A stretch of 64,000 nucleotides of DNA. Source: Caballeronia ptereochthonis. Its GTDB lineage: Bacteria; Pseudomonadota; Gammaproteobacteria; Burkholderiales; Burkholderiaceae. Location: the NCBI RefSeq assembly GCF_001545075.1, contig NZ_FCOB02000007.1, forward strand, positions 1-64,000. The letters run 5' to 3'. Below the pieces are notes generated by a model. That model searched no databases, had not been told where the DNA came from, and worked only from the letters and a program-made list of their open reading frames with translations. Position numbers and translations under genes: made by a program. Shown here piece after piece: positions 14,634 through 33,007 of the stretch; position 1 is the first letter of the stretch, and each line of letters starts with the position of its first letter.

Positions 14634-16997
14634 TTATCGCGAAAAGCTCAGGTCCAGGGCCTTCATCAGTTCCGCGAGGCTATACGGCTTGCGCAACGCC
14701 TGCCAGGGAAACCCCTGCGCCATGTCTGAGAGAACCACATCTCCAGAAGCGAAGATGATGCGCGTTTTTCCATATGCCTCGATTACCCGCCGGGCTAGTT
14801 CGGTACCCGGCATATCGGGAAGGCGAAGATCCGTCAGCAGAACATCGAAAGAGCCATCGTTTAAAGCGCGAAGCGCTTCCGTCGCGTTCGCCGCTCGGAC
14901 GACTTGATAACCGAGCACTGAAAGGAGCTCGCTAACCGCTTCGCGGGACGGGTCGTCGTCTTCGACCACAAGCACGCGCTTGGCCGATCTATCCGGCGCG
15001 CTCGTCGCTTGCGGCTGGTTGGCGTCCGGGGACATTGGGAGCGCCGGCCCATCAAAGCCGAGCACGCGGCGAATTTTGAACGCGAGCTCCTCACGGCTGT
15101 ACGGCTTGCTGAGCAACTGCACGCCTGGATCGAGCCGTCCGCCATGGACGATCGCGTTCTGTGTGTAGCCGGACGTGAAGAGGACGTGGATATGCGGTTG
15201 AATCTGTACGGCCCGGCGGGCCATCTCGGGACTCTTGAGCGAGCCGGGCATGACGACGTCCGTAAAGAGAAGATCGATGTGGACGCCGCTGCTCAACACA
15301 GCGAGCGCCTGTTCGGCGTTATCCGCCTTGAGCACGCTATAACCGAGCTCGGCCAGCATCTCGATCACGGTCGCTTGCACCTTCTTGTCGTCCTCGACGA
15401 CGAGCACGGTCTCACTGCCTCCCGTCATTGGAGAGTTCCATCGAGGCGCCGGTTCATACGCATCCGCCAAGGATCGCGGCAGGTAAATGCGCACCGTGGT
15501 GCCGTGTCCCACTTCGCTGTAGATTCGAATATGACCGCCGCTCTGTTTCACGAAACCGTAGGCCATGCTCAGCCCAAGTCCAGTCCCTTCGCCTTCGGCT
15601 TTGGTCGTAAAGAACGGTTCGAACGCTCGTTCGATGACTTCGGGGGACATGCCGGTCCCGGTATCCGTCACGCCGAGCATCACATACTGGCCGGGTGGTA
15701 CGTCCGATAGCGAGCGCACGTAACTGTCATCGAGCATGGCGTTGGCGATTTCCAACGTGAGCTTTCCGCCATCGGGCATGGCATCTCGCGCGTTGATGGC
15801 CAGGTTCAGGACGACGTTTTCCAGTTGATGGGTATCGACGAATGCGTTCCACAAACCGCCTGAGACGACCGTCTCAACCTTGACGGTCTCGCCAAGCGCG
15901 CGACGCAGCAACTCGTCCATGTCACGGACCATGGCGGCGAGATTTACAGCGACGGGTTGAAGCGCTTGCCGCCGGCCGAAGGCGAGCAACTGAGCGGAGA
16001 GCTTGGCGCCGCGCTCCACCGCGTCGATGGCGTTGGACACGCGCTCCATCATCCACTCGTCCCGCGGACACCGGCTTTGGAGCAATTCCAGGTTGCCTCG
16101 GAGAACCTGCAGGACATTATTGAAATCGTGCGCCACGCCGCCGGTCAGCTTGCCAATCGCCTCCATCTTCTGAGATCGAAAGAGTTCAGCTCGGGTCTGT
16201 TCGAGAAGTTGCTCTGCCTCGCGCTTTTCGGTGACATCGCGGGTAATTTTGGCGAAGCCAATGAGCTCCCCCGATTCGTCGCGTATCGCATCGACGATGA
16301 CATGCGCCCAAAAGCGGGTGCCGTCGCGCCGCACGCGCCATCCCTCGGATTCGAAGCGTCCCGCGTGCGCGGCCGTATCCAATGCACGTTCGGGCAGTCC
16401 GGCCGCGGCATCTTCCGGCGTGTAGAAGCGAGAAAAGTGCGACCCTATGATTTCTTCAGCGGTATAGCCCTTGATGCGTCGGGCACCGTTGTTCCAGTTC
16501 GTCACACGGCCTTGAGGCGAAAGCATGAAGATCGAATAGTCTGTCACGCCTTCGACGAGTAGACGAAACCGGCGCTCGCTCTCGATCACGGCGTCATGAG
16601 CCTTTCGCTTATCGCTTTCGTCCCTGACGACCTTCACGAAGCCTCGGGGGAGGCCGTCGCTTCCTGGAAGCGCGCTCGTAACGACGCTCGCCCAGAAGAC
16701 TGAGCCGTCCTTGCGCTTTCGCCACCCTTCAGTTACGTAGCTGCCCCGCTTGCTCGCTTCATCCAGCTCGATTTCGAGGGTATGGCGATCCGGCTCACCG
16801 TCCGAAAAGAAGACGCGGTAGTGACGACCCACGATTTCGTCGGGGGCATATCCGTAGATGGCCGTCCCTCCGGCGTTCCAGCTCGACACGAATCCAGCCG
16901 GGGTTAGGGAAAAAATGGCGAGATCGGCTGTGGAGTCGCTCCAGGCCTTTGCCCACTCGGCGGAGAGTCCGCTGTCCTTTTTTTCGCTGCTCGGCAT
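14634..16997 (-). CDS. hybrid sensor histidine kinase: PAS-PAS-HisKA-HATPase-REC-REC
   Basis: This is a 787-residue soluble hybrid kinase. Two PAS domains (about residues 20-135 and 140-265, each with the W.RRKDG/RRDGTRFWA core and PAC segment) precede the dimerisation helix with phospho-acceptor His290 in GGVAHDFNNV. The ATPase domain follows (NLAINARDAMPDGG, GTGMSPEVIERAFEPFF, GTGLGLSM). Two receivers follow with phospho-acceptors Asp580 (FTDVVMPG) and Asp723 (LTDLRLPDMPG), each ending in a KPYS switch Lys. There is no membrane segment, so sensing is cytoplasmic (redox, light or small ligand through PAS). No output regulator gene lies beside it. Confidence 0.94.
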   Translation of the reverse strand: MPSSEKKDSGLSAEWAKAWSDSTADLAIFSLTPAGFVSSWNAGGTAIYGYAPDEIVGRHYRVFFSDGEPDRHTLEIELDEASKRGSYVTEGWRKRKDGSVFWASVVTSALPGSDGLPRGFVKVVRDESDKRKAHDAVIESERRFRLLVEGVTDYSIFMLSPQGRVTNWNNGARRIKGYTAEEIIGSHFSRFYTPEDAAAGLPERALDTAAHAGRFESEGWRVRRDGTRFWAHVIVDAIRDESGELIGFAKITRDVTEKREAEQLLEQTRAELFRSQKMEAIGKLTGGVAHDFNNVLQVLRGNLELLQSRCPRDEWMMERVSNAIDAVERGAKLSAQLLAFGRRQALQPVAVNLAAMVRDMDELLRRALGETVKVETVVSGGLWNAFVDTHQLENVVLNLAINARDAMPDGGKLTLEIANAMLDDSYVRSLSDVPPGQYVMLGVTDTGTGMSPEVIERAFEPFFTTKAEGEGTGLGLSMAYGFVKQSGGHIRIYSEVGHGTTVRIYLPRSLADAYEPAPRWNSPMTGGSETVLVVEDDKKVQATVIEMLAELGYSVLKADNAEQALAVLSSGVHIDLLFTDVVMPGSLKSPEMARRAVQIQPHIHVLFTSGYTQNAIVHGGRLDPGVQLLSKPYSREELAFKIRRVLGFDGPALPMSPDANQPQATSAPDRSAKRVLVVEDDDPSREAVSELLSVLGYQVVRAANATEALRALNDGSFDVLLTDLRLPDMPGTELARRVIEAYGKTRIIFASGDVVLSDMAQGFPWQALRKPYSLAELMKALDLSFSR

Positions 16998-19267: not shown

Positions 19268-19478
19268 TCATGGCTCCAGTGCTGGTCGAAAAAAGAGGAC
19301 CGCTTGCGCGGCCATGCAATCAAATTCAGCATTGGATGTTCCCGAAATCACGTCGACGGGCGGCTCGCTGAATCGAGTCCATGCGCGCCGGGTTCGTCAT
19401 CGATCTGGCGTGGGCATTGCTGAACAACCCGGACTCGGACTCGCGCGACCCGTATCGCCTCGCAAAGGAAAGGGCCAG

Positions 19479-19694
19479 ATGAATCGCATTCTCCGATCCG
19501 GAATGATCCCCGCGCTCGCATGCGCATGTACGACTGGCGCCACGAACGCATGCGCGCGGCACAACGGCGCGCCACCCGGCAATATTTCATCGGATGGCGG
19601 TGCTTCCGGAAAGTCCGCGGGCTTGGCCGGCGGCGCGGACGCCGCGGGACAATCCGGAACCGACCCCGCGAAGCGCGAGGACTGGAACGCGTGA
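19479..19694 (+). CDS. small Ser/Gly/Ala-rich putative lipoprotein coupled to the ABC exporter
   Basis: This is a 71-residue protein. The ATG at 19479 follows GGAAAGGG. A short basic and hydrophobic leader ends ALAC, which could be a lipobox, and the rest is a low-complexity Ser/Gly/Ala segment typical of disordered lipoprotein tails. Its stop overlaps the GTG start of the exporter in a GTGA, so the two are translationally coupled. I do not recognise the family. It may be a periplasmic accessory or only a leader that sets exporter translation. Confidence 0.5.
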   Translation: MNRILRSGMIPALACACTTGATNACARHNGAPPGNISSDGGASGKSAGLAGGADAAGQSGTDPAKREDWNA

Positions 19695-22348
19695 CGCCGC
19701 ACGCCTCGTCCGACAGGGAGCGCGCGCGCCTGCGCGGCCGCATCGTGGCCGATCTGTGGCGCGCCGTGTGGGCCTGGCGCCATCAGACGGCGGCAGCGGT
19801 CGTGCTGATGATCGGCGCGCGGCTCGCGGTCGTTTCGGTGCCGCTGATGCTCAAGCGCGTCATCGACGAGTTCAGTCACCCCGCATCGACCGTCGTATTC
19901 CCCGTCTTTCTGGTGCTCGCCTACGTGCTGCTGCGCTATCTCGGCGACGTGCTCAACGAAGCGCGCGATGTCGTGTTCAGCATCGTCACGCAGCGCACGG
20001 TGGCGTCGTTCACCGAGCGAACGTTCGAGCATCTGCACGCGCTCGGCGCGCGTTTTCATGCGCAGCGCGAAACCGGAGCGGTGGTGCGCGACGTGCAGAA
20101 AGGCGCGGACGGCATCGGCTTCCTGCTGGGCACGGCGTTCTTCACCATCGTGCCGGTGATGATCGAAATCGGCACGATCGTTGCCGTGATGGTGAGCAAT
20201 TATTCGCTCGAATTCATGGCGATCATCGCCGTGACCTTCGTGCTGTATTCCGTTCACACCTTCGTTTTCACGCGCTATCGCATGCGCTTCCAGCGCACGG
20301 TCAACCAGCTCGAGGCGCAGTCCGACAGCCGTCTCGTCGACAGCCTGCTCAACTACGAAACCGTGAAGTTCTTCGCGAGCGAGAGCACGGAAACGCGGCG
20401 TCTGTCGGGCGTGCTCGAGGAATGGGTTCATGCGCGGGTCGCCAATCAACGCGCGCTCACGCTGCTGCACGTGGGGCAGAGCACCATCATCGCGCTCGGC
20501 GTCGCGGCGGTGATGCTGCGCGCGGCGCAGCTCGTCGTGGCGGGCGCCATGAGCGTCGGCGATCTCGTGCTCGTCAACGCGTACATCGTGCAGGTGTGCA
20601 ATCCGCTGAACACGCTCGGCTTCGTGTTCCGCGAAACCAATGATGCGGTCGTGAACGTCGAGCGCATGTTCGATATCCTGCTCGCGCGCGGCCGGGTTCG
20701 CGAGGACGTGGATGAGGCGCACGCGAAGCCGCTCGTCGTGAGCGCGGGCGAGATCGAATTCGATCATGTGGCGTTCGGCTACGATCCGGCGCGGCAGATT
20801 CTGCGCGACGTCGATTTTCGCGCGCACCCGGGCAGGAAGCTCGCGGTCGTCGGCGGTAGCGGATCGGGCAAATCCACGCTCGTGAAGCTGCTGTTCCGGC
20901 TCTACGAACCGACCGCGGGCGCGATCCGCATCGACGGACAGGACATCGCGCAAGTCACGCAGAGCAGCCTGCGCGCGACGATCGGCATCGTGCCGCAGGA
21001 CACCGTGCTCTTCAACGACACGATCGCCTACAACATCGGCTACGGCCGCCGCGACGCCACGCGCGCGGATATCGTGCAGGCGGCGCGCGCGGCGCAGCTG
21101 GACGGCTTCATCGAACGCCTGCCCGATCACTACGACACGCGCGTCGGCGAGCGCGGCGTGCGGCTCTCGGGGGGCGAGCGTCAGCGCATCGCGATCGCGC
21201 GCGCGATTCTCAAGAACCCGCGCATCATCGTGTTCGACGAGGCGACTTCCGCGCTCGATACGCGCTCGGAGCGCGCGATCCAGACGGAGCTCGACAGGCT
21301 CGCGCGCGGACGCACGTCGATCGTCATCGCGCATCGTCTCTCGACCGTCGTGAATGCCGACTGGATTCTCGTGATGGAGCACGGCCGCATCGTCGAGCAG
21401 GGACAGCATGACGAGTTGCTCTCGCGCGATGGCGTGTACGCGCGCATGTGGTCGCTGCAATGGCAACAAGGCGAGCTGGAGCATGCGCAGCGCAAGGTGT
21501 CCGCGCAGGCGGTCGGGCTCGATGCGCTCGTCGCGGGCGTGGTCGATGCGCTGCACGAAGAGATTGCCGCGCGAGGCGTGAATCTCTATACGGTCATCAC
21601 CGAGCCTGGTTTGCGCGTGAGCGGCGACGCGAGCGTGCTGCAGCAGATCGTAGCCGAGCTGTGCCGCGTGCAGATCGGCGCGGCGGCGCGCGGCGAGCGA
21701 GTCGAACTGCGGGTTTTCCGCGAGGGCAATCACGCAAGCCTCACCGTGATGGGGCAGCGCGCGAGTCCCGCCGAACTGTCGCCGCGCCAGATGCGCCGGC
21801 TCGAAGCCGCGTTGAACGAGACGGGCGGCGGTTTCGCTGCGCGCTACATCGACAGGCATGTCGCCTACGTGGCGACGATGCCCCTGCGCCCCGTGCTCGA
21901 CGACCCTGCGTTTGCCGCGGCCGCTCCCGCCGATGCGCTCATGGGAGTCACGGTCATGGTGCTCGACGATCAGGAAGATGCCCGTGACGCGCTCGAGGCG
22001 GTGCTCGAATCGGTGGGCGCGCATGTGGTGCCGTGCGCCTCGGGCGACGAAGCCCTCGAGCGCCTGCGCGGCCTGTCCACGGCGCAATGGCCCGACGTGC
22101 TCCTGTGCGATATCGTGCTCGGCGGCGAGCAGGACGGCTACGAGGTCTTGCGGCTCATCCGCGAGGAGGAGGCGAGCCGCGGAGTATCGCTCGGCGAACG
22201 CATGCCGGCGATCGCCCTGACGGGGCACGCGCAGGCCGAAGCGCGCTTGCGCGCGCAGGCCGCGGGTTTTCAGGCGCACCTGACGAAGCCGGTGCCCGCG
22301 CCCAGGCTCATTGCGGCCATCGCCGGCGTGACCGCGCGCACGCCTTAG
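19691..22348 (+). CDS. Atm1-type ABC exporter fused to a degenerate kinase-like region and a receiver domain
   Basis: This is an 885-residue protein starting at the GTG that overlaps the upstream stop. Residues 1 to about 310 form an exporter membrane domain with the Atm1/HMT1 signature region [12 protein letters not shown]. The nucleotide-binding domain has Walker [10 protein letters not shown] (Lys394), signature LSGGERQR (about 490), Walker [13 protein letters not shown] (about 512) and AHRLST (about 545). Residues about 600-740 resemble a histidine-kinase ATPase domain without its nucleotide motifs ([26 protein letters not shown]). Residues 753-885 are a receiver with acidic pair Asp759/Asp760, phospho-acceptor Asp807 (LLCDIVLGG) and switch Lys866 (LTKPVP). 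Atm1 relatives export glutathione conjugates or metals. Control of export by phosphorylation is inferred. No adjacent kinase gene is present; the nearest hybrid kinase is 2.7 kb away. Confidence 0.92.
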
Positions 22349-23325
22349 GCGCTGTAAGCGGCGCGTGACTCGGCGGCTTCGAGGACGCGGCGGAAATGCT
22401 GCGCCGTGCGCCGCAGTCCCTCGTCGAGCGGCGTCGTGGGCGTCCAGCCGAGCGCATCGCGCGCGAGCGCGATATCGGGCCGACGATGCCACGGATCGTC
22501 GAGCGGCAAGGGCTTGAAGACGATCTCCGAAGACGAACCCGTCAGCGCGACGATGCGCCGCGCGATATCGAGCATCGAAAGTTCGTGCGGGTTGCCCAGA
22601 TTCACGGGCCCGGTGAGCTCATCGGGCGTGTTCATGAGGCGGATGAAGGCGTCCACCATGTCGTCGACATAGCAGAACGAGCGGGTCTGCATGCCTTCGC
22701 CATAGACGGTGATCGGCTGTCCGGAAAGCGCCTGCATCATGAAGTTGGAGATCACGCGGCCATCGGATGGATGCATGCGCGGTCCATAGGTATTGAAGAT
22801 GCGCGCGATCTTGATCGAGAGGCCGTGCTGCCGGCGGTAGTCCATGAAGAGCGTTTCGGCGCAACGCTTGCCTTCGTCGTAGCAGGAGCGCGGACCGATC
22901 GGATTCACGTTGCCCCAATACGCTTCCTGTTGCGGATGCACGTGCGCGTCGCCATACACTTCGCTCGTCGATGCCTGGAAGATCCTCGCGCGAACGCGCT
23001 TTGCGAGCCCCAGCATGTTGATCGCGCCATGCACGCTCGTTTTCGTCGTCTGCACGGGATCATGCTGGTAATGAATCGGCGATGCCGGACACGCGAGGTT
23101 ATAGATCTCGTCGACCTCCACATAGAGCGGAAAGGTGACGTCGTGACGCATCAGCTCGAAGTTCGGGCTGTCGAGCAGATGCGCGATGTTGTCCTTCGTG
23201 CCCGTGTAGAAGTTGTCGACGCACAGCACGTCGTGGCCTTGCGCGAGCAGGCGCTCGCATAGATGCGAGCCCAGAAAGCCCGCGCCTCCCGTCACCAGAA
23301 TCCGCTTTCTGAAGGTCTCTTTCAT
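22345..23325 (-). CDS. NAD-dependent UDP-glucuronate decarboxylase (UDP-xylose synthase) type epimerase/dehydratase
   Basis: This is a 326-residue extended SDR. The NAD motif [10 protein letters not shown], the CVDNFYTG loop, the HDVTFPL segment and [12 protein letters not shown] are the signature of UDP-xylose synthases. The catalytic triad region includes STSEVYGD and YDEGKR. It would make UDP-xylose from UDP-glucuronate in the cytoplasm for glycan assembly. It is the last gene of the glycan locus and converges on the ABC exporter with a four-base overlap of stops. Confidence 0.9.
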
Positions 23326-23352
23326 TTCGCCATGTTCCCTTGATGTCGAGTG

Positions 23353-24312
23353 CTAGCTGCACACGTAGCGCAATGTCTCGTCCCAGTCGCGGGCGAAGCG
23401 TGCAATGTGAAATCGTTCCAGCGCGGTTCGCCGCGCGCCTTCGCCGAGTCGCCGCGCTTCGGCGGGATCGCGCAGCAGGTGCTGCATCGCATCGACGAGC
23501 GCCCGGATATCCGTATGGATATAGCCGCTCTCGCCATTGCGAATCACGGTGGCGAGCTCGGTCGTGGCCAGCCCGACAATCGGCATGCCGATCGTCATCG
23601 CCTCGACGACGGCCAGTCCCAGGCTCGTCCAGCGGATCGGATTGAAGAAGAAGCGATAACGCGCGCTGAACGCCGCGAGCTCCAGATTGCCGACTTCGCC
23701 GATGCCGCCCGCCGACTGCGCATCCATGCCGACGAGATCGAGCGGCACGCGGGCGGCCGCCTGCGCATAGACGTCGCTGCCGAGCCGCCTGCCGCGCTGG
23801 CGCAGATGATTGATCACCGCGATGCCGCGCTCCAGTTCGCCGCTGTAGTGCACCCCATCGGGCACCAGCACGCCGTGCTCGATGACGCGCGTGGGCGTCT
23901 CGCCGCTGTCCCACATCAGCCGGTTGAAGTGCGTGACGTGCACGAGCAGCGTGTTGCGCTCCCGTACCCAGTGCGGCTGCTCGAACGGATTCTCCTGCGG
24001 TGGATCGTGCTCGATGTAGACACGCGGCAAGCGCCGCTGCGCATCGGTGAGGAGAGCGAGGCGGTCGTCGTCCCATTGATGTCTGTGCTGGAATAGCACG
24101 ACATCGAACGATCGGGACGGCACTTCGCTTGCCGGCACTTCACGCACGTTGCCGCCGAACGGCAGCGCGCCGGCCGTGCCCGCGTAACCGGGCGGATAGC
24201 CAGGACGGGTAACGAGATAGAAGTCGTGCGGTGCCTGGCTCAGGTAGTACAGGTAGTTACCGTGGATATGCCACGTGAGCACGCGCAGGCGGCGGGAGCT
24301 AGTCGCGGGCAT
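23353..24312 (-). CDS. GT4-type glycosyltransferase
   Basis: This is a 319-residue GT-B transferase. The C-terminal donor site shows the acidic-rich block [21 protein letters not shown] followed by [10 protein letters not shown], equivalent to the GT4 E-x7-E region. N-terminally it has [12 protein letters not shown] and [10 protein letters not shown]. No membrane segment is evident. It overlaps the end of the preceding GT9 gene by 14 bases, and the epimerase gene follows after 27 bases. Sugar and acceptor are unknown. Confidence 0.82.
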
Positions 24313-25372
24313 GAAGAAGCGTCTCCTCTCGGACGGTCGATCGAAGCTGCGCGAACGCCGCGTCGAGTACGGCCTGCACGCTTATGTTGAGCGCGCATTC
24401 GTGCCCATGAGGGCATGTGCGGAACGCGCAAGGGCGGCACGCCGGCCAATCCGCCAGCACGCGATGTCGCGCGTGATCGAGCGGCGCCCAGCGGCGCGTA
24501 TCGCTGCCCGATGCGATCACGACGCTCGGCGTGCGCATCGCGGCCGCGACGTGCGAGAGTCCGGTGTCGTTGCAGACGATGAGCCTCGCTTTCGCGACGA
24601 GCGCGGCGAGCGCGCCGAGGGAGGTGCGCCCGGCGAGGTCGATGGCATGCGCGCCCGCATCGCCCGTCACGCGGACGGTCAGTGGCGCCTCGCTCGCGCT
24701 TCCCGTGACGGCGACTCGACAGCCTGCGTTCGATAGCGCGCGGGCCACTTCGCCGAAGCGTTCAACGGGCCATCGACGTGAAGGCAATTGCGCGCCAGGA
24801 TGAACGAGAACGAGTTTGTCGAGATCTATCGCGTAGGTGTCGACGAGCGCATCGTATTCGCGTTTGTCGGTATCGGTTAGCGGAATCTCGAGATCGAGCG
24901 CATGCGCATCGATGCCGAGGCGTTGCATCAATGCGGTGTAGCGCGCGGGCTCGGGCAGTTCATCGGGCCACGGTATGAAAACCCCTTCGCGCGTGGCTTC
25001 ATCGAGTTCGAGAAAGCCTGCGTTCAGACGCGCGCCCATGCCTTCCACGATGTCGTTCGCCACGCCGCCGCTTCCATGCAGCTGGATCGCGAGATCGAAG
25101 CGGCGCTCGCGCAGCGCGCGCAGGAATGCGGGCAGATGCGCATCGGTTTCCTCCTGTTCGGGGAAGCCGACCGCGCCCGGAAACACGATCAGTTCATCGA
25201 GCAGAGGCGCGTATCGGTTCACAAAGCTCGTGGCCCACGGCAAGCCGACCAGCGCGATATGCGCATGCGGATATGCATGGCGCAGCGCGCGCAATGCGGG
25301 CACCGCGCACAACATGTCGCCCAGTTGCAGCGCGCGAAAGATGACGATGTTTTCGATCGGTCCGGCGCTCAT
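24299..25372 (-). CDS. GT9 heptosyltransferase-family glycosyltransferase
   Basis: This is a 357-residue GT-B enzyme of the ADP-heptose:LPS heptosyltransferase family. Visible elements are IVIFRALQLGDML at the N-terminus, VHPGAQLPSRRWP at the start of the donor domain, and NDTGLSHVAAAM. The C-terminal CRPCAFRTCPHGHEC adds a Cys cluster. The ATG at 25372 overlaps the previous stop as ATGA; a longer frame upstream is not coding-like. It probably transfers heptose or another ADP-activated sugar on the cytoplasmic face. Confidence 0.87.
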   Translation of the reverse strand: MSAGPIENIVIFRALQLGDMLCAVPALRALRHAYPHAHIALVGLPWATSFVNRYAPLLDELIVFPGAVGFPEQEETDAHLPAFLRALRERRFDLAIQLHGSGGVANDIVEGMGARLNAGFLELDEATREGVFIPWPDELPEPARYTALMQRLGIDAHALDLEIPLTDTDKREYDALVDTYAIDLDKLVLVHPGAQLPSRRWPVERFGEVARALSNAGCRVAVTGSASEAPLTVRVTGDAGAHAIDLAGRTSLGALAALVAKARLIVCNDTGLSHVAAAMRTPSVVIASGSDTRRWAPLDHARHRVLADWPACRPCAFRTCPHGHECALNISVQAVLDAAFAQLRSTVREETLLHARD

Positions 25373-26421
25373 AGAAACAACACCCTGAATTTGAGCGCGC
25401 CGCGAATGCGCCAGTAGATCGACAGGTATGGGATGACCGCCGAAGTCCACAGCATCTCGGCGATATGTGCGGGCGTGTGAGCCGCGGTCTCGAGCCGCTT
25501 CAAGGTGAACCGGATCGTCATCATCGCCCACGCGAGCATGGCAAGCAACGCCGCTTCCGGCGCGCCCGCCACGAGCGATAATAGTGCGGCGATGAGCGCC
25601 GCGAACATTGCGTAGTAGAGAAGCGGCGGCCCGCGCCGGATGCGCGCGCGGAACAACTCGGGGTGCTTCTTGTAGAGCAAGGCATCGAACTGGCTCTTCT
25701 TCTGCTGTGAAATGCTTACGCCCCAGCGTGCGGGGCGAACGGGATGCAGCACCATTGCATCGTCAGCGCGCGCGATGACGAGTCCCGCCCGCATCAGCGT
25801 GAATTGCAGATCCGAATCCTCGCGCCAGGCCGCCGTGAAGCGCGCGTCGAATCCGCCCGTGCGTTCGAGCGCCGCGCGCGTGGCGAAGGCGTTCGCGGTG
25901 GCGAATTCCGCGGCCACGAGCCCGGCGGCATCGAGTTCGTAGTCGGTCGGGCGCTTCGGCAGCGGCACGACGATGCGCCCCGAGACCGCGTCCGCGCCCG
26001 CGTCGATCGCGCGCATGCCGTTGGCGAGCCAGCGAGGATCGGGGATGGTGTCGTCGTCGGTAAAGGCGATGCTTCTTGCGAGCGACGCGCGCCAGCCCGC
26101 GTTGCGCGCGCCCGCCGGGCCTTGGGTCGCCGTCACGGGCACGTAGCGGATCCGCGGCCCGTGTTCCGCGTGCTGTCGCGCCAGGCGCAGCACGCAGGCC
26201 CGGGTCGCTTCGTCGGGACCGTCGTCGCACACGATGATCTCGTAGCGCGCCGGATCGTACGCTTGCGCGGCGAGCGCGAGCACGCAGCGTTCGAGCATCG
26301 CGGGACGGCGATACGTCGGCACGACCACCGACACGTCCGGGATGAAATCCCCGCGCGGCAAGGTTGGCGCATTCGTCGCGCTCGTCTCGCCGTTTTCGAA
26401 AAGGCCGGTGTATGTGCTCAT
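25369..26421 (-). CDS. GT2 family glycosyltransferase with C-terminal membrane segments
   Basis: This is a 350-residue inverting GT-A transferase. The catalytic domain starts VSVVVPTYRRP, with the DxD-type motif TDDDT and a second acidic site in AAWREDSDLQ. One or two hydrophobic segments near residues 270-310 (LLYYAMFAALIAALLSL, AALLAMLAWAMM) anchor it to the inner membrane. The ATG at 26421 overlaps the preceding carbamoyltransferase stop (ATGA). It belongs to the glycan operon. Confidence 0.87.
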   Translation of the reverse strand: MSTYTGLFENGETSATNAPTLPRGDFIPDVSVVVPTYRRPAMLERCVLALAAQAYDPARYEIIVCDDGPDEATRACVLRLARQHAEHGPRIRYVPVTATQGPAGARNAGWRASLARSIAFTDDDTIPDPRWLANGMRAIDAGADAVSGRIVVPLPKRPTDYELDAAGLVAAEFATANAFATRAALERTGGFDARFTAAWREDSDLQFTLMRAGLVIARADDAMVLHPVRPARWGVSISQQKKSQFDALLYKKHPELFRARIRRGPPLLYYAMFAALIAALLSLVAGAPEAALLAMLAWAMMTIRFTLKRLETAAHTPAHIAEMLWTSAVIPYLSIYWRIRGALKFRVLFL

Positions 26422-28163
26422 GTTCCAGCCTCCGGCTTTTCGACGAGGAACGAGCCGATCACGAGCGCATCGAGCGGCGAGGTCCAGAACGATTCGAGCG
26501 CATCGCGCGGCGTGTTCACCATCGGTTCGCCGCGCGTGTTGAACGACGTGTTGACGAGCACCGGCACACCCGTGCGTTCCCTGAACGCCGCGATCAGGTC
26601 GTAATAGAGCGGATGTTGCGCGCGATTGACCGTTTGCACGCGCGCCGTGCCGTCGATGTGCGTGACCGCCGGTATGCGCGCCTTCATCTCCGGACGCACA
26701 TCGAAGACGAACAGCATGAAGGGCGCGATGCGCGCGTCGACGAACCAGTCGGCCGCATGCTCTTCCATCACCACAGGCGCGACCGGGCGGAAATCCTCGC
26801 GATCCTTGATCTCGTTCAGGCGCGCCTGCATCGACGCATCGATCGGCGATGCCAGGATCGAGCGCGCGCCGAGCGCGCGCGGCCCGAACTCGGTGCGCCC
26901 CTGATACCAGCCGATCACGCGGTTCCGCACGAGCAGATCGGCGGTTTCGCCCGCGATGTCCTGAAGCCTGCGATAAGGCGCGTGCGTCCATTTCAGGAGC
27001 GCTTCGATCTCTTCGTCACCGAATGCGGGGCCGAGATACGCGTGATCCATGCGCCACTTGCGGCTGCGATCGCCAGCTTTTTCCCGCTCGCAATAGTCCG
27101 TCCACAGCGCGGCGCCGAGCGCGGTGCCGGCATCGCCCGCGGCAGGTTGCGCCCACACTTCCTCGAACGGCCCCCGATCGCGCAGGCGTGCGTTCATCAC
27201 GCAGTTGAGCGCGACGCCGCCCGCCATCGCGAGATTCGACAGACCGGTACGTTCGTGAAGCCACCTCGCGAGCTCCAGCGCGGTCTCTTCGAGCACGACC
27301 TGCAATGAATGGGCGATATCGAAATGACGTTGCGTCAGCGGGCCGCCACGTTCGCGCGCGGGACCGAAACGTTCGACGAGGCGCGGCGCATCCACGGTAT
27401 AGCTGCCGTCGTGTCGATACCTCACGACCTGCCGAAAATGATCGACGTAAGCGGGCTTGCCGAACGAAGCAAGCGCCATCACCTTGTACTCATCCGACGA
27501 ATGCAGAAAGCCGAGATAGCCGGTCACGGCTTCATAAAGCAAGCCTAGGGAATGTGGCAGCTCCACTTGTTTGAGCCGCTGATACTCGCCGTTCACGAAT
27601 TGCCCGAGGCTCGTCGTGACGCCTTCGCCGCGTCCGTCCATGGTGAGCACGGCTGTGTCCTCGAACGGCGCGGCGAGAAACGCGCTTGCTTCGTGACAAA
27701 GGTGATGATCGACGTTGTGCCATGCGAAGCGCGGGGCGCGTCCGCCGCTCGCGAAACGCCGCTTCAGATGATGCGGCGCGCCGTCGAGCAATTGCCCCTT
27801 GGCGTTGACGATATAGCTCAGAAACAAGGGGTCCCAAGGCGATTCCGAAGGGTTACTGCTGGCCTGCGCAGAAGGGATCAGCGGCAACGCGATGCTCGCC
27901 TTCATGTCCTTCGGCATGCCGGAGAAAAGCTGCGGATCGTACGAATACGCGATGTGATCGACGTCGGCCAACTCGATGCGCGCTTCCTTCAGGCAATAGT
28001 CGATGGCATCGAAGGGAAGCTGCCACGTCGAGAACGGCACGGGGCGCTTCGCGTGCTTGACGTGCGTGAAGCGCTCGTCCTCGGCCGCGGCGATGACCAT
28101 GCCGTCCTGTACGAGCGCCGCTGCGCTGTCGTGATAAACCGCATTGATTCCCAATGTGTACAT
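26418..28163 (-). CDS. NodU/CmcH-type O-carbamoyltransferase
   Basis: This is a 581-residue carbamoyltransferase, related to TobZ, NodU and the LPS heptose carbamoylase of Pseudomonas. The N-terminal ASKHA-like domain starts LGINAVYHDSAAALV and contains the His cluster HNVDHHLCHEASA and the TMDGRGEG loop. The metal/ATP half has AMAGGVALNCVMNARL, GRTEFGPRALGARS and NTSFNTRGEPMV. It carbamoylates a sugar hydroxyl using carbamoyl phosphate and ATP. With two heptosyltransferase-family genes and a heptose phosphatase in the same operon, a carbamoylated heptose is a reasonable inference. Confidence 0.92.
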   Translation of the reverse strand: MYTLGINAVYHDSAAALVQDGMVIAAAEDERFTHVKHAKRPVPFSTWQLPFDAIDYCLKEARIELADVDHIAYSYDPQLFSGMPKDMKASIALPLIPSAQASSNPSESPWDPLFLSYIVNAKGQLLDGAPHHLKRRFASGGRAPRFAWHNVDHHLCHEASAFLAAPFEDTAVLTMDGRGEGVTTSLGQFVNGEYQRLKQVELPHSLGLLYEAVTGYLGFLHSSDEYKVMALASFGKPAYVDHFRQVVRYRHDGSYTVDAPRLVERFGPARERGGPLTQRHFDIAHSLQVVLEETALELARWLHERTGLSNLAMAGGVALNCVMNARLRDRGPFEEVWAQPAAGDAGTALGAALWTDYCEREKAGDRSRKWRMDHAYLGPAFGDEEIEALLKWTHAPYRRLQDIAGETADLLVRNRVIGWYQGRTEFGPRALGARSILASPIDASMQARLNEIKDREDFRPVAPVVMEEHAADWFVDARIAPFMLFVFDVRPEMKARIPAVTHIDGTARVQTVNRAQHPLYYDLIAAFRERTGVPVLVNTSFNTRGEPMVNTPRDALESFWTSPLDALVIGSFLVEKPEAGT

Positions 28164-28165
28164 GG

Positions 28166-29341
28166 CTAGAAGGTTCGTGTTGGCTTGTTGACAGGCGATG
28201 GGTTTTCTTCGATCAGCTCGAGCGCTGCCGCCACGACCTCGTCGACACTGACGCCGACGAGGCACGCATGATGTCCTTCCGGACACACGCTGCGATAGCA
28301 CCAGCGGCACGGCACGTCGCGATAGAGCACGCGATGCGGCGTCTGCCACGGCATGTGCTGCGGATTCGTGAGCGCATAGAGATCGACGACGGGCGTGCCG
28401 AGCGCCGATGCGAGATGCACCGGTCCGCTGTTGTTCGAAACGAGCACGCGAGCGTGCTGTATCAACGCGGCGAGTTCACCGAGTTCGAGCGCGCCCGACA
28501 GATCGGTCGCATGACGGTTTGCGCCGCATGCTTCGCGGCATAAAGGACGCTCGCCGCGCGAGCCGGTGACGAGAATCGGCCATTGCAGTTGCCCGCTTAA
28601 TCGCGCGATCACTTCCGCAAACCGCGCGACCGAATATCGGCGCGATTCGGCGCTCGCACCCGGATGCACGACGATGAACGGCGCGTGCGGATCGACATCG
28701 CTCGCGTGCAGCTTTTGCTCAAGCGACGCGGCGTCTTCGGGGCGCACGTTGAAGCGCATGTGTGTATCCGCCGTGCACGCGCCGATTCGAGCAACGAGTT
28801 CGAGCTGACGTTCGACTTCATGCCGCGTGCCGTGCTGCGGCTCGGTTTCCTGCGCCCAGTCGGTGAGAAGGCCGTAAGGGTTTTCGCGGCAATGCGCGAG
28901 GCGCAGTGGAATGCCGGCGAGATGACACAGCATCGCGGCGGGCAGCGGGTTCTGGCTGTACACGCTGAAGATCACGGCCGCATCGAATTGAGCGGCGTTG
29001 AGGCGTGCGCGCATCGCGAGATCCGCGAGGGGGTCGACGGGCGCATCCTGCTTGACCCACGGCGCGTCGTATTCGATCACGTCGTCGATCGCATCGATGA
29101 AGGGCGCTGCCGCCTTGCCCGCGCGCGATGCGAGCAAGGTCAGATGCCGTCCCGGCTGCGCCGTGCGCAGCGCGTGCAGCGCGGGCGTGGTCATCAACAC
29201 ATCGCCGAGATTGTCGAGACGGACGCAAAGGATGCGCTTCACGTCCGGGCCCCAGTCGCGCGCCTGATTCGCCGCGCTCTTGCGCGCATGCGCCTCGATG
29301 ACCGGGGGCAACGTCGACGGAATCACCGGATCGCGCTTCAT
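28166..29341 (-). CDS. GT9 heptosyltransferase-family glycosyltransferase
   Basis: This is a 391-residue GT-B transferase. ILCVRLDNLGDVLMTTPAL opens the acceptor domain, VHPGASAESRRYS opens the donor domain, and SNNSGPVHLASALG carries the conserved donor contacts. It ends with CRWCYRSVCPEGHHAC, a Cys-rich segment like the one in the other GT9 of this locus. The ATG at 29341 overlaps the phosphatase stop (ATGA). The two GT9 copies are clearly diverged, so they probably add successive residues. Confidence 0.88.
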   Translation of the reverse strand: MKRDPVIPSTLPPVIEAHARKSAANQARDWGPDVKRILCVRLDNLGDVLMTTPALHALRTAQPGRHLTLLASRAGKAAAPFIDAIDDVIEYDAPWVKQDAPVDPLADLAMRARLNAAQFDAAVIFSVYSQNPLPAAMLCHLAGIPLRLAHCRENPYGLLTDWAQETEPQHGTRHEVERQLELVARIGACTADTHMRFNVRPEDAASLEQKLHASDVDPHAPFIVVHPGASAESRRYSVARFAEVIARLSGQLQWPILVTGSRGERPLCREACGANRHATDLSGALELGELAALIQHARVLVSNNSGPVHLASALGTPVVDLYALTNPQHMPWQTPHRVLYRDVPCRWCYRSVCPEGHHACLVGVSVDEVVAAALELIEENPSPVNKPTRTF

Positions 29342-29916
29342 GCCGGACACTCCGCGTTGACGATGGCTATCGCAGCCTCGTGCATGTCCTTCACGACGAT
29401 ATCGGGCTCGCGTCCCGCGCCGCGCAGCCATTCGGTCTCGTTGCCGCTATCGATGAGCACGCTGCGGCAGCCCGCGCGATGACCGGCTTCGACGTCGTCG
29501 AGTATGTCGCCGATGAACCAGCTTCGCGAGAGATCGATATGATGCTCGCGCGCCGCGCGCAGCAGCAGTCCGGGCGCGGGCTTCCGGCATGCGCAGGTTC
29601 GTGTGTATTCAGGCACGACGCCTTGCGGGTGATGCGGGCACCAGTAGACATCCTCGAATAGAGCGCCCGCTTCCGCGGCGAGTTCATGCAGACGCGTCTC
29701 GACTCGATCGAGCGCGTGCCATTCGAACTTGCCCAGCGCGACTCCGCTCTGGTTGCTGACGACGAAAAGCGGCACGTCGCGCGATGCGAACAGGCGCAGC
29801 GCTTCGAACGCCCCGGGTGCGAGGCGCATCATGTGCGGATCGACATTCCAGGGCACATCGTCGAGCAGGGTGCCGTCCTTGTCGATGAAGACGGCGGCGC
29901 GTGGCGTCTTCATCAT
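29338..29916 (-). CDS. D-glycero-manno-heptose 1,7-bisphosphate phosphatase type HAD (GmhB-like)
   Basis: This is a 192-residue HAD-IIIA phosphatase. The nucleophile motif is FIDKDGTLLDD, followed by VVSNQSGVALG and the GDILDDVEAG motif. The zinc loop is also typical of GmhB (WCPHHPQGV followed by CACRKP). It removes phosphate from heptose bisphosphate in ADP/GDP-heptose synthesis. Two adjacent ATGs exist; the first (29916) overlaps the previous stop and has GGAGGA upstream. Its position between a GT4 and a GT9 supports a heptose-containing product. Confidence 0.9.
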   Translation of the reverse strand: MMKTPRAAVFIDKDGTLLDDVPWNVDPHMMRLAPGAFEALRLFASRDVPLFVVSNQSGVALGKFEWHALDRVETRLHELAAEAGALFEDVYWCPHHPQGVVPEYTRTCACRKPAPGLLLRAAREHHIDLSRSWFIGDILDDVEAGHRAGCRSVLIDSGNETEWLRGAGREPDIVVKDMHEAAIAIVNAECPA

Positions 29917-31181
29917 CGCGATCCTCCGCCCATCGCGACGCGTGCGTCCTGCGCTTCCTCTCCGCTCACGCGCGCGTAGACCTCCGCGAGCGCTTGCGCG
30001 ACGCTCGACCACGTAAACATCGCGTTGGCGCGCGCGAGGCCCGCCTCGCCCATGCGGCGCGCGAGCATCGGATCGCGTTTGAGCGCGGCGATTGCATGCG
30101 CGAGCGCGGCCGGAGCTTTCGGCGGGACGAGCAGACCGGTTTCACCATGTGCGACCGAATAGCGGATGCCGCCCACGTCCGCGCCGATGACCGGCCTGCC
30201 GCACGCCATCGCCTCCAGCGGCGTGATGCCGAACGGCTCGTACCACGGCGTCGTCACGAACACATCGGCGGCGTTATAGAAGTGCTTCAGCTCGGCGCGT
30301 CCATGACGGCCGGCGAAATGCACATGCGTCTCGACGCCGAATTCGCGCGCGATGCCGCGCAGACGGACGATCTCCGGCGTCGCGATCTCGTTGGCCTCGT
30401 CGGAATTGCCGCCGACCACATAGAGTTCGGCACTTTCGCCATGCTCGGACTGGCACACGCTGAGCGCACGCACGACATTGTCGACGCCCTTGCGCGGCAC
30501 CATGCGCCCGAGCTGCAGCACGATGAAACGGTCCTGCGGCCAGCCGAGCCGTTCTCTTGCTGCCGCCTTCTCGAGCGGGTGAAACTCCGCACGGTCGAAA
30601 CCGCAAGGAACGAGATCGATGCGCGCGGGATCGGCGGCGTAGAGGTGGATCAGGTCGTTCTCGTCCTGCGGGCATTCGGCGATCACCGAGTCGGAACGCT
30701 TCACGAGCTCGTCCTCGATCTCGAAGCGCGCATCCGGAAAGCCGTCGGATTCGCCCTGATGCAGGCGTCTCACGCGGCCGAGCGCGTGAAACGTCGTGAC
30801 GAGCGGCAGGCCGAGCACATCCTTGATGTGCAAGCCGACGAGGCCCGACATGAAGAAGTTCGCATGCACGATCGCATACGGCTGTGCTTCCTTCCGCATG
30901 AAGTCAATCATGAAGCTGGCGAACGCGCCCATGTACGGTAGAAGCTGCTCCTTGGGCAACTGCACAGGCGGCCCTGCCGGCACGTTTATCACGCGGAGAT
31001 TCTCGAAGCGAGAGACGAGCGGCAATAAGGAACGATCGCGGCGCGTGAAGACGTCGACATCATGACCGATGCGAACGAGCTGGCGCGCGACATTCGCCAC
31101 ATAAATGTTCTGTCCGCCACTGTCCACGCCGCCTGCGATCGCCAGGGGCGAAGCATGTTCACTGATCAAAGCGATTTTCAC
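29913..31181 (-). CDS. GT4 family glycosyltransferase (MshA/sucrose-synthase-like)
   Basis: This is a 422-residue retaining GT-B transferase. The N-terminal glycine loop is GGVDSGGQNIYVANV. The donor domain has LGRMVPRKGVDN, the TTPWYEPFGITPLEAMACG block carrying the E-x7-E motif, and VIGADVGGI. The protein is soluble. It starts the second, tightly overlapping part of the glycan operon after a 184-base gap, so it could have its own promoter. Confidence 0.9.
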   Translation of the reverse strand: MKIALISEHASPLAIAGGVDSGGQNIYVANVARQLVRIGHDVDVFTRRDRSLLPLVSRFENLRVINVPAGPPVQLPKEQLLPYMGAFASFMIDFMRKEAQPYAIVHANFFMSGLVGLHIKDVLGLPLVTTFHALGRVRRLHQGESDGFPDARFEIEDELVKRSDSVIAECPQDENDLIHLYAADPARIDLVPCGFDRAEFHPLEKAAARERLGWPQDRFIVLQLGRMVPRKGVDNVVRALSVCQSEHGESAELYVVGGNSDEANEIATPEIVRLRGIAREFGVETHVHFAGRHGRAELKHFYNAADVFVTTPWYEPFGITPLEAMACGRPVIGADVGGIRYSVAHGETGLLVPPKAPAALAHAIAALKRDPMLARRMGEAGLARANAMFTWSSVAQALAEVYARVSGEEAQDARVAMGGGSR

Positions 31182-31325
31182 GGGAGCCCCCTGTCATACG
31201 ATCCCCATCGGCGCGTGCGAGGTGCACAATCGCGTGGATCAGTCGCCAGGTTTCAGCATTCGACGTGCCACTCGTGGCGTTGGTCGGAAGAACTACGAAA
31301 CGATTTGCGGTTCGTCGTGGAGCGG

Positions 31326-31342
31326 ACCAAATATCGTTTGGT
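31326..31342. repeat. small inverted repeat between two glycan genes
   Basis: ACCAAA-TATCG-TTTGGT forms a six-pair stem in the 184-base gap between the GT2 stop and the GT4 start. It could be a weak terminator for the upstream pair or an operator for the downstream operon. There is no T tract on either strand. Confidence 0.35.
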
Positions 31343-31365
31343 TCGATGCACGGACGCGCGCGTTT

Positions 31366-32313
31366 TTACGCATCGCGTGTAGAACGGAAAGACGCCGATG
31401 CGTCTGCCTTCTTCGCGCGGCGCTCATCGTCTTCACGGACGATGCGGCGCATGTCCTGAACGTGCGGCGGGATCACGCGGCGCCTGACCATGGCCCACGC
31501 GATGCCACCAGCGAGCGCGGGCAGATCGCGCTTGAGCGAGTGTTCTGCGCGCATCACCGTCAGGGCTTCACGCGTGGCGTGCAGCGCTTCGATGAGAGGC
31601 AGGCGCATCCATGCGACCCACGCGGCGTTGCGCGCGAGGAGCCTGCGCCGTCGTGCGCTGTCGCGCAGCGGAGAAGGATGATGATGTAGAACGAGCTCAT
31701 CCATGTAGACGATTTCGTATCCCGCGGACAGGACGTCGAGCGAGACGAGCGTCTCTTCTCCGCCAATGTGGAACCTGGGCTCGTAGCCGCCGACCTGCCG
31801 GAAGACGTTCGTGCGGAATACGCAGGCGCCCGCCATGTAGCCGACGAGAGAAGGGCCCGGCAATCCGTGGGTCGCAAGCGGGCTTTCGCGCATGCGCTCG
31901 CACGTCTCATCCACCGCGCCGTGTTCGCCGACGACGACGCGCGCGTTCAGCACTGCGACGCGCGGCGCGGCATCGAGTATCTCGACCGCGCGCGAAAGGG
32001 AGCCGGCGCTCCACCAGGTGTCGTCGTCGCAGAACGCGACATACTCCGTCGCGACGCGCGCGACGCCTAGATTGCGTCCTGACGCGCCGAGATTGCCCGG
32101 TGCGACGATGAGCTCGACGAAGGGAAAGCTTGCCGCGATGCGTTCGGCGGTTGCGTCGGTGGAAGCATTATCGACCGCAATGATCCGCGCGCGGTCCGGC
32201 AACGCGGCAAGTCTTGCGAGCGTCTCAAGAACCTGATCGGCACGGTTGTAAGTGAGCACGATCAGCGTGAGCCGTGCGTGGCACGAATCGGCAAACATTG
32301 CCCGTTCATCCAT
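31366..32313 (-). CDS. GT2 family glycosyltransferase
   Basis: This is a roughly 315-residue GT-A transferase: LTLIVLTYNRADQVLETL, the VDNASTDAT segment, FCDDDTWW as the DxD region, and FHIGGEETLVSLDV for the catalytic acidic site. No transmembrane segment is clear. I chose the ATG at 32313, which overlaps the PIG-L stop; an ATG at 32367 is possible. It is co-transcribed with the PIG-L deacetylase. Confidence 0.83.
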   Translation of the reverse strand: MDERAMFADSCHARLTLIVLTYNRADQVLETLARLAALPDRARIIAVDNASTDATAERIAASFPFVELIVAPGNLGASGRNLGVARVATEYVAFCDDDTWWSAGSLSRAVEILDAAPRVAVLNARVVVGEHGAVDETCERMRESPLATHGLPGPSLVGYMAGACVFRTNVFRQVGGYEPRFHIGGEETLVSLDVLSAGYEIVYMDELVLHHHPSPLRDSARRRRLLARNAAWVAWMRLPLIEALHATREALTVMRAEHSLKRDLPALAGGIAWAMVRRRVIPPHVQDMRRIVREDDERRAKKADASASFRSTRDA

Positions 32314-33007
32314 TTCGATCGGTCGTTCGAAGGCGCCAGAAGCGTTCTGGGGAGAGGACGTCGTCATAGCCATGCGGGCCGAAGGCTTTGAGCTGACTCG
32401 CATAGCATTGCACGGCGCGTTGCTTCGTTGCGCGACACGCAAGCGCTTCGGCATCGATCGGATCGGGGAGCGGTGTGGCTTCGATATCGCTGTTTGCGAG
32501 TTCGGCGAGCCGCATTTGCACGAGGCCGTTCATGCGCCGGTACAGACAGTCCTCGTACGCAATGCACGCAATGGATGTGTCGGAAAGGCTCGCCTCGCGC
32601 GCGGCCGCATGGGTGAGATGGTGATCCGAATGGAAAAGGCCGAGGGGAATGAACAGCGTGTCGCAGGTGCATTCGCGGATCACGTTGCGAATGGCTGCTG
32701 CGATTTCCCTCGCCGTGTTCGTCCTGCCTTGCGCATATTGCGAGTCGAGGAAGCCGAGATGCGCGGCACGAGCGCCGAGTATCTCCAGCGCGGCCACGTC
32801 CTCGGCCCGGCGCGCGCGCATGGCCTGATGCGCGTTCGCGAAGCCGCACTGCGTGTCCCAGTCCGTGACGAGCGCCGCGCGTGGCGCGCCCGTGAATACC
32901 GTGCACACGACTGCGCCCGGCGACGCCGCGAGCATGGCACCGCAGCTGAATACGGCATCGTCGAGATGAGGCGAAATCACGATCGTTCTGCGGGAGAACC
33001 GGGGCAT
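32306..33007 (-). CDS. PIG-L/LmbE family deacetylase
   Basis: This is a zinc-dependent N-acetyl-sugar deacetylase of the PIG-L family. SPHLDDAVFSCGA carries the H-x-DD zinc/base motif and FHSDHHLTH the distal His ligand. I placed the start at 33007, 9 residues before that motif; the frame is open further (ATG at 33094). It is the first gene of the glycan locus and would deacetylate a glycan precursor, as in mycothiol, GPI or capsule routes. The substrate is unknown. Confidence 0.85.
   Translation of the reverse strand: MPRFSRRTIVISPHLDDAVFSCGAMLAASPGAVVCTVFTGAPRAALVTDWDTQCGFANAHQAMRARRAEDVAALEILGARAAHLGFLDSQYAQGRTNTAREIAAAIRNVIRECTCDTLFIPLGLFHSDHHLTHAAAREASLSDTSIACIAYEDCLYRRMNGLVQMRLAELANSDIEATPLPDPIDAEALACRATKQRAVQCYASQLKAFGPHGYDDVLSPERFWRLRTTDRNG

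Follow-up and report, generated by a model that had tools for sequence, protein, structure and literature searches.

A receiver and a degenerate kinase domain fused to an Atm1-derived ABC exporter in Burkholderiales: a candidate phosphorelay-switched pump

The stretch analysed here, called the window, comprises 64,000 nucleotides of Caballeronia ptereochthonis DNA (RefSeq assembly GCF_001545075.1, contig NZ_FCOB02000007.1, positions 1 to 64,000 of the forward strand). It carries a single gene in which an ATP-binding cassette (ABC) half-exporter runs in frame into a domain related to the ATPase domain of histidine kinases (HATPase_c) and then into a two-component receiver. The gene, its domains and its key residues are as follows, with counts referring to aligned rows of the fused proteins or of the fused clade.

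19691..22348, + strand: fused gene, product of 885 residues (ABC half-exporter, pseudo-HATPase, receiver), GTG start and TAG stop
19796..20608, + strand: ABC_membrane, the exporter transmembrane domain, residues 36-306 (Pfam, 105.8 bits)
20291..20293, + strand: Q201, at the AtAtm3 R328 position of the glutathione pocket; Q in 74/74 fused-clade rows
20468..20470, + strand: H260, at the AtAtm3 N387 position; H in 74/74 fused-clade rows
20801..21250, + strand: ABC_tran core, residues 371-520 (Pfam PF00005, 118.1 bits), with Walker A at 388-396, Q436, signature at 492-495 and D516/E517; H548 follows the core
21488..21910, + strand: degenerate HATPase_c (Bergerat-fold) domain, approximately residues 600-740, assigned by homology and fold; nucleotide boxes lost
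21953..22321, + strand: receiver domain, residues 755-877 (Pfam Response_reg, 63.5 bits, cut-off 30.2)
21965..21970, + strand: D759/D760 acidic pair, 69/69 fused rows
22109..22111, + strand: D807, predicted phospho-acceptor, 69/69 fused rows
22286..22288, + strand: K866, conserved receiver lysine, 68/69 fused rows

ABC_membrane, ABC_tran and Response_reg all score above their Pfam cut-offs in the window protein. The exporter has an intact Walker A, signature, Walker B/E517 and H548, and the receiver has D759/D760, D807, T844 and K866. A first-pass annotation made from the DNA letters and their translations had described the gene as an Atm1-type exporter with intact motifs, followed by a degenerate kinase-like region and a receiver; its coordinates, frame and named residues were all correct, and the domain search it proposed recovered the receiver.

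The fusion is real and recurrent. Among 79 loci returned from named public genomes the frame is intact in 42, belonging to Caballeronia, Paraburkholderia, strains labelled Burkholderia and Pigmentiphaga, while four are broken copies and 33 match the exporter part only. Two of the intact loci (L033 and L039) stem from one isolate, Caballeronia temeraria LMG 29319, which has two fused copies, as has genome G052. A plasmid collection contains at least eight records that cover 80% or more of the fused protein's length, from Caballeronia, Paraburkholderia, Burkholderia and Cupriavidus; among the eight listed, five carry generic names such as 'ATP-binding cassette domain-containing protein' and three are without a listed feature. 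As the first-pass annotation had proposed, genomes were surveyed, here with a middle-domain profile built from 25 rows and a match threshold of E 1e-18 or better. Of the 299 family genomes 92 match, spread over 9 of 25 genera and with broken and receiver-less copies counted, which is frequent enough for the protein to matter for the envelope biology of many Burkholderiales. In the genus sample the fusion occurs in 24 of 58 genomes; of these, G044 and G025 carry broken or partial copies, and in G020 the match is truncated. Eight of 399 genomes sampled across the order reach the threshold, and seven of these are ABC fusions (families f1, f4 and f21). The eighth, G427 (locus L178), was rejected as a fusion: its profile match is strong (E 1.3e-21) but its architecture is that of a CHASE-PAS-HisKA-HATPase-REC kinase. 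The profile matches the window's own genome only among 369 genomes of the class, and three genomes among 398 of the phylum, all within the same family and none outside the order; both results concern this middle domain, and no search was made for ABC-receiver fusions that arose independently outside this family. A phage collection gave no match to the tail of the fused protein. Broken copies were seen in L093 ('Candidatus Burkholderia pumila'), L103/L011, L181 and G025, and the genomes G025 and G044 are smaller than 4 Mb.

The exporter part is Atm1-derived and forms its own clade. In a tree of this part, made by a quick method with a midpoint root and with long branches flagged by the tool, 69 fused, five receiver-less and two incomplete rows are split from 20 unfused Atm1 rows by a branch of support 100. 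The unfused rows are 19 of the 33 unfused loci together with the Atm1 of the window's own genome. Broken copies (L041, L074, L093, L103 with L011 alike, and L181) were left out, as were L001-L032, which are too short for the full alignment; L172, broken in frame, and L173, cut at a contig end, were kept and assigned to no group. K394, Q436, S493, D516, E517 and H548 are invariant across the 69 fused, five receiver-less and 20 unfused rows, and the nearest solved structures, both by transmembrane-domain sequence and by fold, are Atm1 proteins (NaAtm1 4mrn, AtAtm3 7n58 and ScAtm1). The likeness to Atm1/ABCB7-type exporters thus lies in the half-transporter fold, the ATPase motifs and the PLN-LG-R stretch of TM6; the fused protein differs from them by its C-terminal pseudo-HATPase and receiver, its separate clade and its linked glycan genes. 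A canonical Atm1 matching the own genome's copy is found in 85 of 100 genomes of the family, and since it occurs beside the fusion, in the window's genome too, the fused protein is an extra paralogue. The receiver-less rows (L167-L171) comprise all five matching genomes of one genus, g10. They keep the exporter and pseudo-HATPase, have no receiver elsewhere in the same loci and nest within the fused clade, which indicates one receiver loss, so that this genus provides a natural experiment in which the receiver has been dropped and the pseudo-kinase kept. The data fit one single fusion event within Burkholderiales.

The receiver retains its chemistry while the rest of its sequence diverges. D759, D760, D807 and T/S844 are kept in all 69 fused rows and K866 in 68, despite a median identity to the window receiver of 57%. 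Ratios of non-synonymous to synonymous substitution (dN/dS), calculated pairwise with our own implementation of Nei-Gojobori, range over 0.08-0.19 in the receiver and 0.14-0.27 in the middle domain among nine close relatives, and 0.17-0.29 and 0.29-0.52, respectively, against four more distant relatives, where dS is near saturation. From its sequence the receiver looks able to accept phosphate, and it is under purifying selection, which makes gating by phosphorylation plausible.

HATPase_c homology, predicted fold and lost nucleotide boxes together identify the middle domain as a pseudo-HATPase of hybrid-kinase origin. Residues 593-754 of the window protein have no Pfam match. When the middle domains of five relatives were scanned, sub-threshold HATPase_c matches appeared in L112 (E 0.0018) and L124 (E 0.0036) and none in the other three. 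The 25-row profile matches HATPase_c frames throughout the order; all nine that were scanned (L133, seven other loci matched in the order, and L178) carry HATPase_c, eight HisKA and seven a receiver. By BLAST the window segment aligns with the HATPase of the hybrid kinase L133 through the N-box region, in a comparison of five loci preselected earlier for scoring, to which its E-values apply and in which some family members are unmatched. An AlphaFold2 model of the tail (predicted local distance difference test, pLDDT, 89.8; predicted template-modelling score, pTM, 0.86) gives the middle domain the HATPase_c (Bergerat) fold. Its top Foldseek match is full-length ShkA (6qrj; E 2.4e-13, 298 columns, root-mean-square deviation 15.4), the high deviation perhaps reflecting a different placement of the two domains, and the catalytic domains of PhoQ, CusS and ThkA follow at E 1e-8 to 1e-7. 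Any identity of the domain other than HATPase was rejected on these Pfam matches in relatives, BLAST, profile search and fold; VIA-align listed receiver rows only and says nothing on this domain. Catalytic features are eroded. The strict G1-box pattern is in place in none of 74 members and G2 in three (L124-L126); the strict patterns also match L048 and L063 (G1 and G2) and L117 (G2) in the linker after the domain, and L116 (G2) at the N-box. Of the 69 fused rows, 32 keep the N-box Asn, which the window protein lacks; median identity to the window domain is 48%, and a Pfam search up to E 1 finds no HisKA/DHp in the window protein. The fused protein is therefore not classed as a histidine kinase, and the 'degenerate kinase-like region' of the first-pass annotation is upheld.

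In their domain order, HATPase_c then receiver, and in sequence before and through the N-box region, hybrid histidine kinases such as ShkA are the closest parallel to the tail, the fused protein differing in that no HisKA and no G1 box were found and its N-terminal half is an ABC exporter. Response regulators with enzymatic output are a known class and share a receiver with the full phospho-acceptor set; in the fused protein a primary active membrane transporter would take the place of the enzyme, and the receiver is C-terminal. The fold of Bce-type transporters differs from the Atm1-type fold. Bce-type transporter/kinase modules (8g3a, BceAB-S, which is in the tail's Foldseek list) likewise couple an ABC transporter physically to two-component signalling, but as separate proteins and through a kinase rather than a receiver. 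In the SLC5/STAC transporter-sensor kinases, as described in the available portion of PMC9100948, a symporter domain is joined to a kinase, so that transporter and two-component parts also share one polypeptide; the fused protein differs in that its transporter part is an ABC exporter and its signalling part a receiver, with no active kinase, and neither an SLC5 symporter nor a STAC domain is among the 17 Pfam families listed for it up to E 1. Every single domain is thus already known. The combination is of a type not met in the literature searched, an open-access library outside which most subscription papers lie and in which no ABC exporter-receiver fusion is reported; a claim that it is absent from print would go too far.

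Two findings of this analysis bear on cargo: changes in the substrate pocket and linkage to glycan genes. Structurally characterised Atm1-type transporters conserve eight pocket residues, according to the available portion of PMC9000953. Measured against that set, every member of the fused clade keeps six and replaces two, with Q at the R328 position and H at the N387 position in 74/74, and position 435, F in canonical Atm1, is T in 58 of 69 fused rows. By contrast, canonical Atm1 proteins of the family, taken from fusion-positive genomes, have all eight residues and F435 in the standard form in 15/15 (15 of 20 such loci, five not having been picked up by the extraction). The 20 unfused rows, mostly of other orders, keep R328 in 15, N387 in 19, F435 in 16, T317 in 15 and R441 in 18. 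With six of the eight residues so defined, the fused protein is not classed as a glutathione exporter. As an extra paralogue with an altered pocket it has, judging from sequence, probably changed its cargo relative to canonical Atm1.

The linked genes lie downstream in the window, where 22345-32454 holds an epimerase, GT2, GT4 (MshA-like) and GT9 glycosyltransferases and a carbamoyltransferase. Three of them have homologues near many fused loci:

26418..28349, - strand: carbamoyltransferase (Pfam); homologue of at least 40% identity near 59/76 fused loci
28166..29431, - strand: GT9 heptosyltransferase-like gene (Pfam, NCBIfam); homologue of at least 40% identity near 51/76 fused loci
29913..31181, - strand: GT4 glycosyltransferase, best NCBIfam match MshA at 304 bits (below the cut-off of 462.5); near 42/76 loci, 7.6 kb away in the window

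The flanks of 76 loci (fused, receiver-less or incomplete), generally about 6 kb and in some cases shortened by a contig end, were examined for seven genes at a floor of 40% identity. Besides the 59, 51 and 42 loci just given, there are 51 with a HAD (GmhB-like) gene, 33 with GT2, 27 with PIG-L and 17 with a short-chain dehydrogenase. At least two of the seven occur in 54/76 loci and at least one in 66/76, against 0/20 canonical Atm1 loci of the family, from fusion-positive genomes, with any of them. Removing the identity floor raises the former to 67/76, but some of these are paralogues of 30% identity, hence the use of the 40% count. The 20 same-family loci replaced an earlier control of 24 unfused loci of other orders, weak through distance, in which two had a dehydrogenase match only. 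The linkage is seen in both family f1 and family f4, and in six of the eight f1 genera other than the window's own; in the window's own 6 kb flanks the carbamoyltransferase alone passes 40%, with GT4 and GT2 farther out.

Cargo is therefore where the first-pass interpretation, phosphorylation-gated export of thiol conjugates or metals, held only in part. An Atm1-derived exporter with an apparently phosphate-competent receiver under purifying selection stands; the two pocket changes and the linked glycan genes make thiol or metal export the weaker guess, and a cargo made by those genes seems likelier than either glutathione conjugates or metals. The evidence does not support a cargo of the mycothiol or bacillithiol type: GT4 falls below the MshA cut-off, and the own genome has no MshC above cut-off and no match to BshC; its sub-cut-off MshC matches resemble those of 13 of 14 control genomes, all 14 of which match and one of which exceeds the cut-off. 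The zinc-resistance ABC transporter of PMC7912956, a six-gene glycerol-type system in the available portion of that source, is a different protein and was rejected as an identity for the fused one.

One candidate kinase is encoded close to the fused gene:

14634..16997, - strand: hybrid histidine kinase with PAS, HisKA and HATPase_c domains and two receiver stretches, transcribed divergently from the fused gene and 2.7 kb upstream of it

It is a possible but unproven phosphodonor of the fused receiver. Only the window and L130 have a kinase of at least 39% identity to it within some 6 kb. The best candidate phosphodonor seen is instead a PAS-HisKA-HATPase-REC kinase (34-35% identity), encoded divergently 0.6-1.7 kb upstream in all four loci of genus g11 (L112-L115), and we regard it as a lead rather than a partner. 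Across the genus, a full-length homologue of the window kinase is found in 17 of the 24 genomes with the fusion and in 9 of the 34 without (Fisher p 0.0012, in a test that ignores relatedness); with ten hand-chosen genomes of 2.4-5.1 Mb removed, the figures are 17/22 and 9/26 (p 0.004). All nine kinase-positive, fusion-negative genomes exceed 7.5 Mb, so genome size confounds this co-occurrence, and seven fusion-positive genomes (G001, G025, G037, G044, G047, G051 and G057) are without a full-length intact homologue.

The architecture, single clade, conserved receiver chemistry, selection on the receiver, degenerate HATPase, altered pocket and linked genes are direct observations. Building on them, we lean towards an Atm1-derived half-exporter with a hybrid-kinase tail that is probably switched by receiver phosphorylation and whose cargo likely comes from the glycan genes; phosphorylation, direction of gating and cargo are what we infer. 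Gating by aspartyl phosphorylation is the best reading of the tail, and the keeping of the same fusion in related bacteria suggests, at the level of sequence, direct control of the pump by a signalling system. The half-exporter would presumably act as a homodimer; its C-terminus is a hybrid histidine kinase tail, HATPase_c and receiver, minus the phosphoacceptor helices. The most likely role of the pseudo-HATPase would be that of a folded spacer, or of a platform for docking, on the nucleotide-binding domain. D807 would probably be phosphorylated in trans by a kinase or phosphotransfer protein, which may alter the packing of the paired C-terminal modules; this in turn could change the ease with which the nucleotide-binding domains close, switching export on or off with no need for fresh transcription. 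The established outputs of two-component systems are chiefly transcription, second messengers and motility. A receiver inside an ABC exporter would, if this model is true, be a direct phosphorelay switch on a pump. A bolder form of the model, which we think less likely than not, makes the transporter itself a response regulator, in which receiver aspartyl phosphorylation would gate an Atm1-derived pump for a small glycoside made by the MshA-like glycosyltransferase, heptosyltransferase, carbamoyltransferase and, at some loci, PIG-L deacetylase, with the dead kinase domain as coupling element.

Several observations weigh against phosphorylation gating of a glycan exporter. A kinase-like match lies in the flanks of only 11 of the 76 loci (the window itself, L130 at 39%, L112-L115 at 34-35%, and L037, L053, L056, L058 and L059 at 27-30%), most loci being without one nearby; the canonical Atm1 loci have such a match in 0/20. 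Exporter and pseudo-HATPase persist without the receiver in 5/5 receiver-less members, all of one genus, and six of the eight pocket residues remain those of glutathione exporters. Ten loci have none of the seven genes, including three of g25, one of g7 and one of f21, and gene linkage is indirect evidence on cargo, many of the 76 loci being close relatives. The full-length model has a pTM of 0.57, with pLDDT 56-65 at the joint (residues 591-610), and gives no interface.

The persistence of the pseudo-HATPase without the receiver, which suggests that it has a job of its own, and the linked glycan genes also suit the strongest alternative, that receiver and pseudo-HATPase serve to dock or localise the exporter, tethering it to the envelope glycan machinery or a kinase complex, with phosphorylation shifting the position of the pump and not its rate. 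We consider this unlikely though worth serious attention, as a plain tether would not require phospho-acceptor residues that are invariant in 69/69 rows. Signalling might also run in the reverse direction, in a Bce-type manner, with the exporter as sensor or sink: the receiver would drain phosphate from a kinase, the transport state would alter the drain and pumping would thereby be reported to gene regulation. The kinase ancestry of the tail, the 17/24 versus 9/34 co-occurrence and the hybrid kinase upstream in 4/4 g11 loci speak for such an arrangement; the neglect of relatedness in that test, the large genomes of the nine exceptions and the seven fusion-positive genomes without an intact homologue leave it rather improbable. 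An ordinary Atm1 glutathione-conjugate exporter dragging a decaying, functionless tail would account for the six retained pocket residues and for the middle domain being the fastest-evolving part, but sits poorly with invariant receiver residues, receiver dN/dS of 0.08-0.19 in close relatives, two pocket residues changed throughout the clade and the presence of canonical Atm1 as a protein apart in the window's genome and most of the family, and we give it little credence. An assembly or sequencing frameshift or chimera joining two genes, which the first-pass annotation had named as a result that would overturn it, is refuted by the 42 intact loci across several genera, with nothing found in its favour.

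Further open reading frames (ORFs) accompany the fused gene. One precedes it:

19479..19694, + strand: ORF of 71 residues, GTGA overlap with the fused gene; putative signal-peptide-like start, read by eye

The first-pass annotation had described it as a coupled gene, and its GTGA overlap recurs in 10/10 loci compared in register, the window included, the ORF being shorter in L037; two more loci, out of register, were left out. The product is Gly/Ala-rich, has no Pfam match up to E 0.01 and is kept, with indels, among close Caballeronia relatives. A protein of 176 residues encoded at L124:7575-8105, with no Pfam or NCBIfam match, has homologues near 17/76 fused loci and also near receiver-less genes; in L124 its gene overlaps the 3' end of the fused gene. 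Opposite the fused gene, on the - strand at 19397-22492, runs an antisense open frame of 1031 residues, probably a by-product of high GC content.

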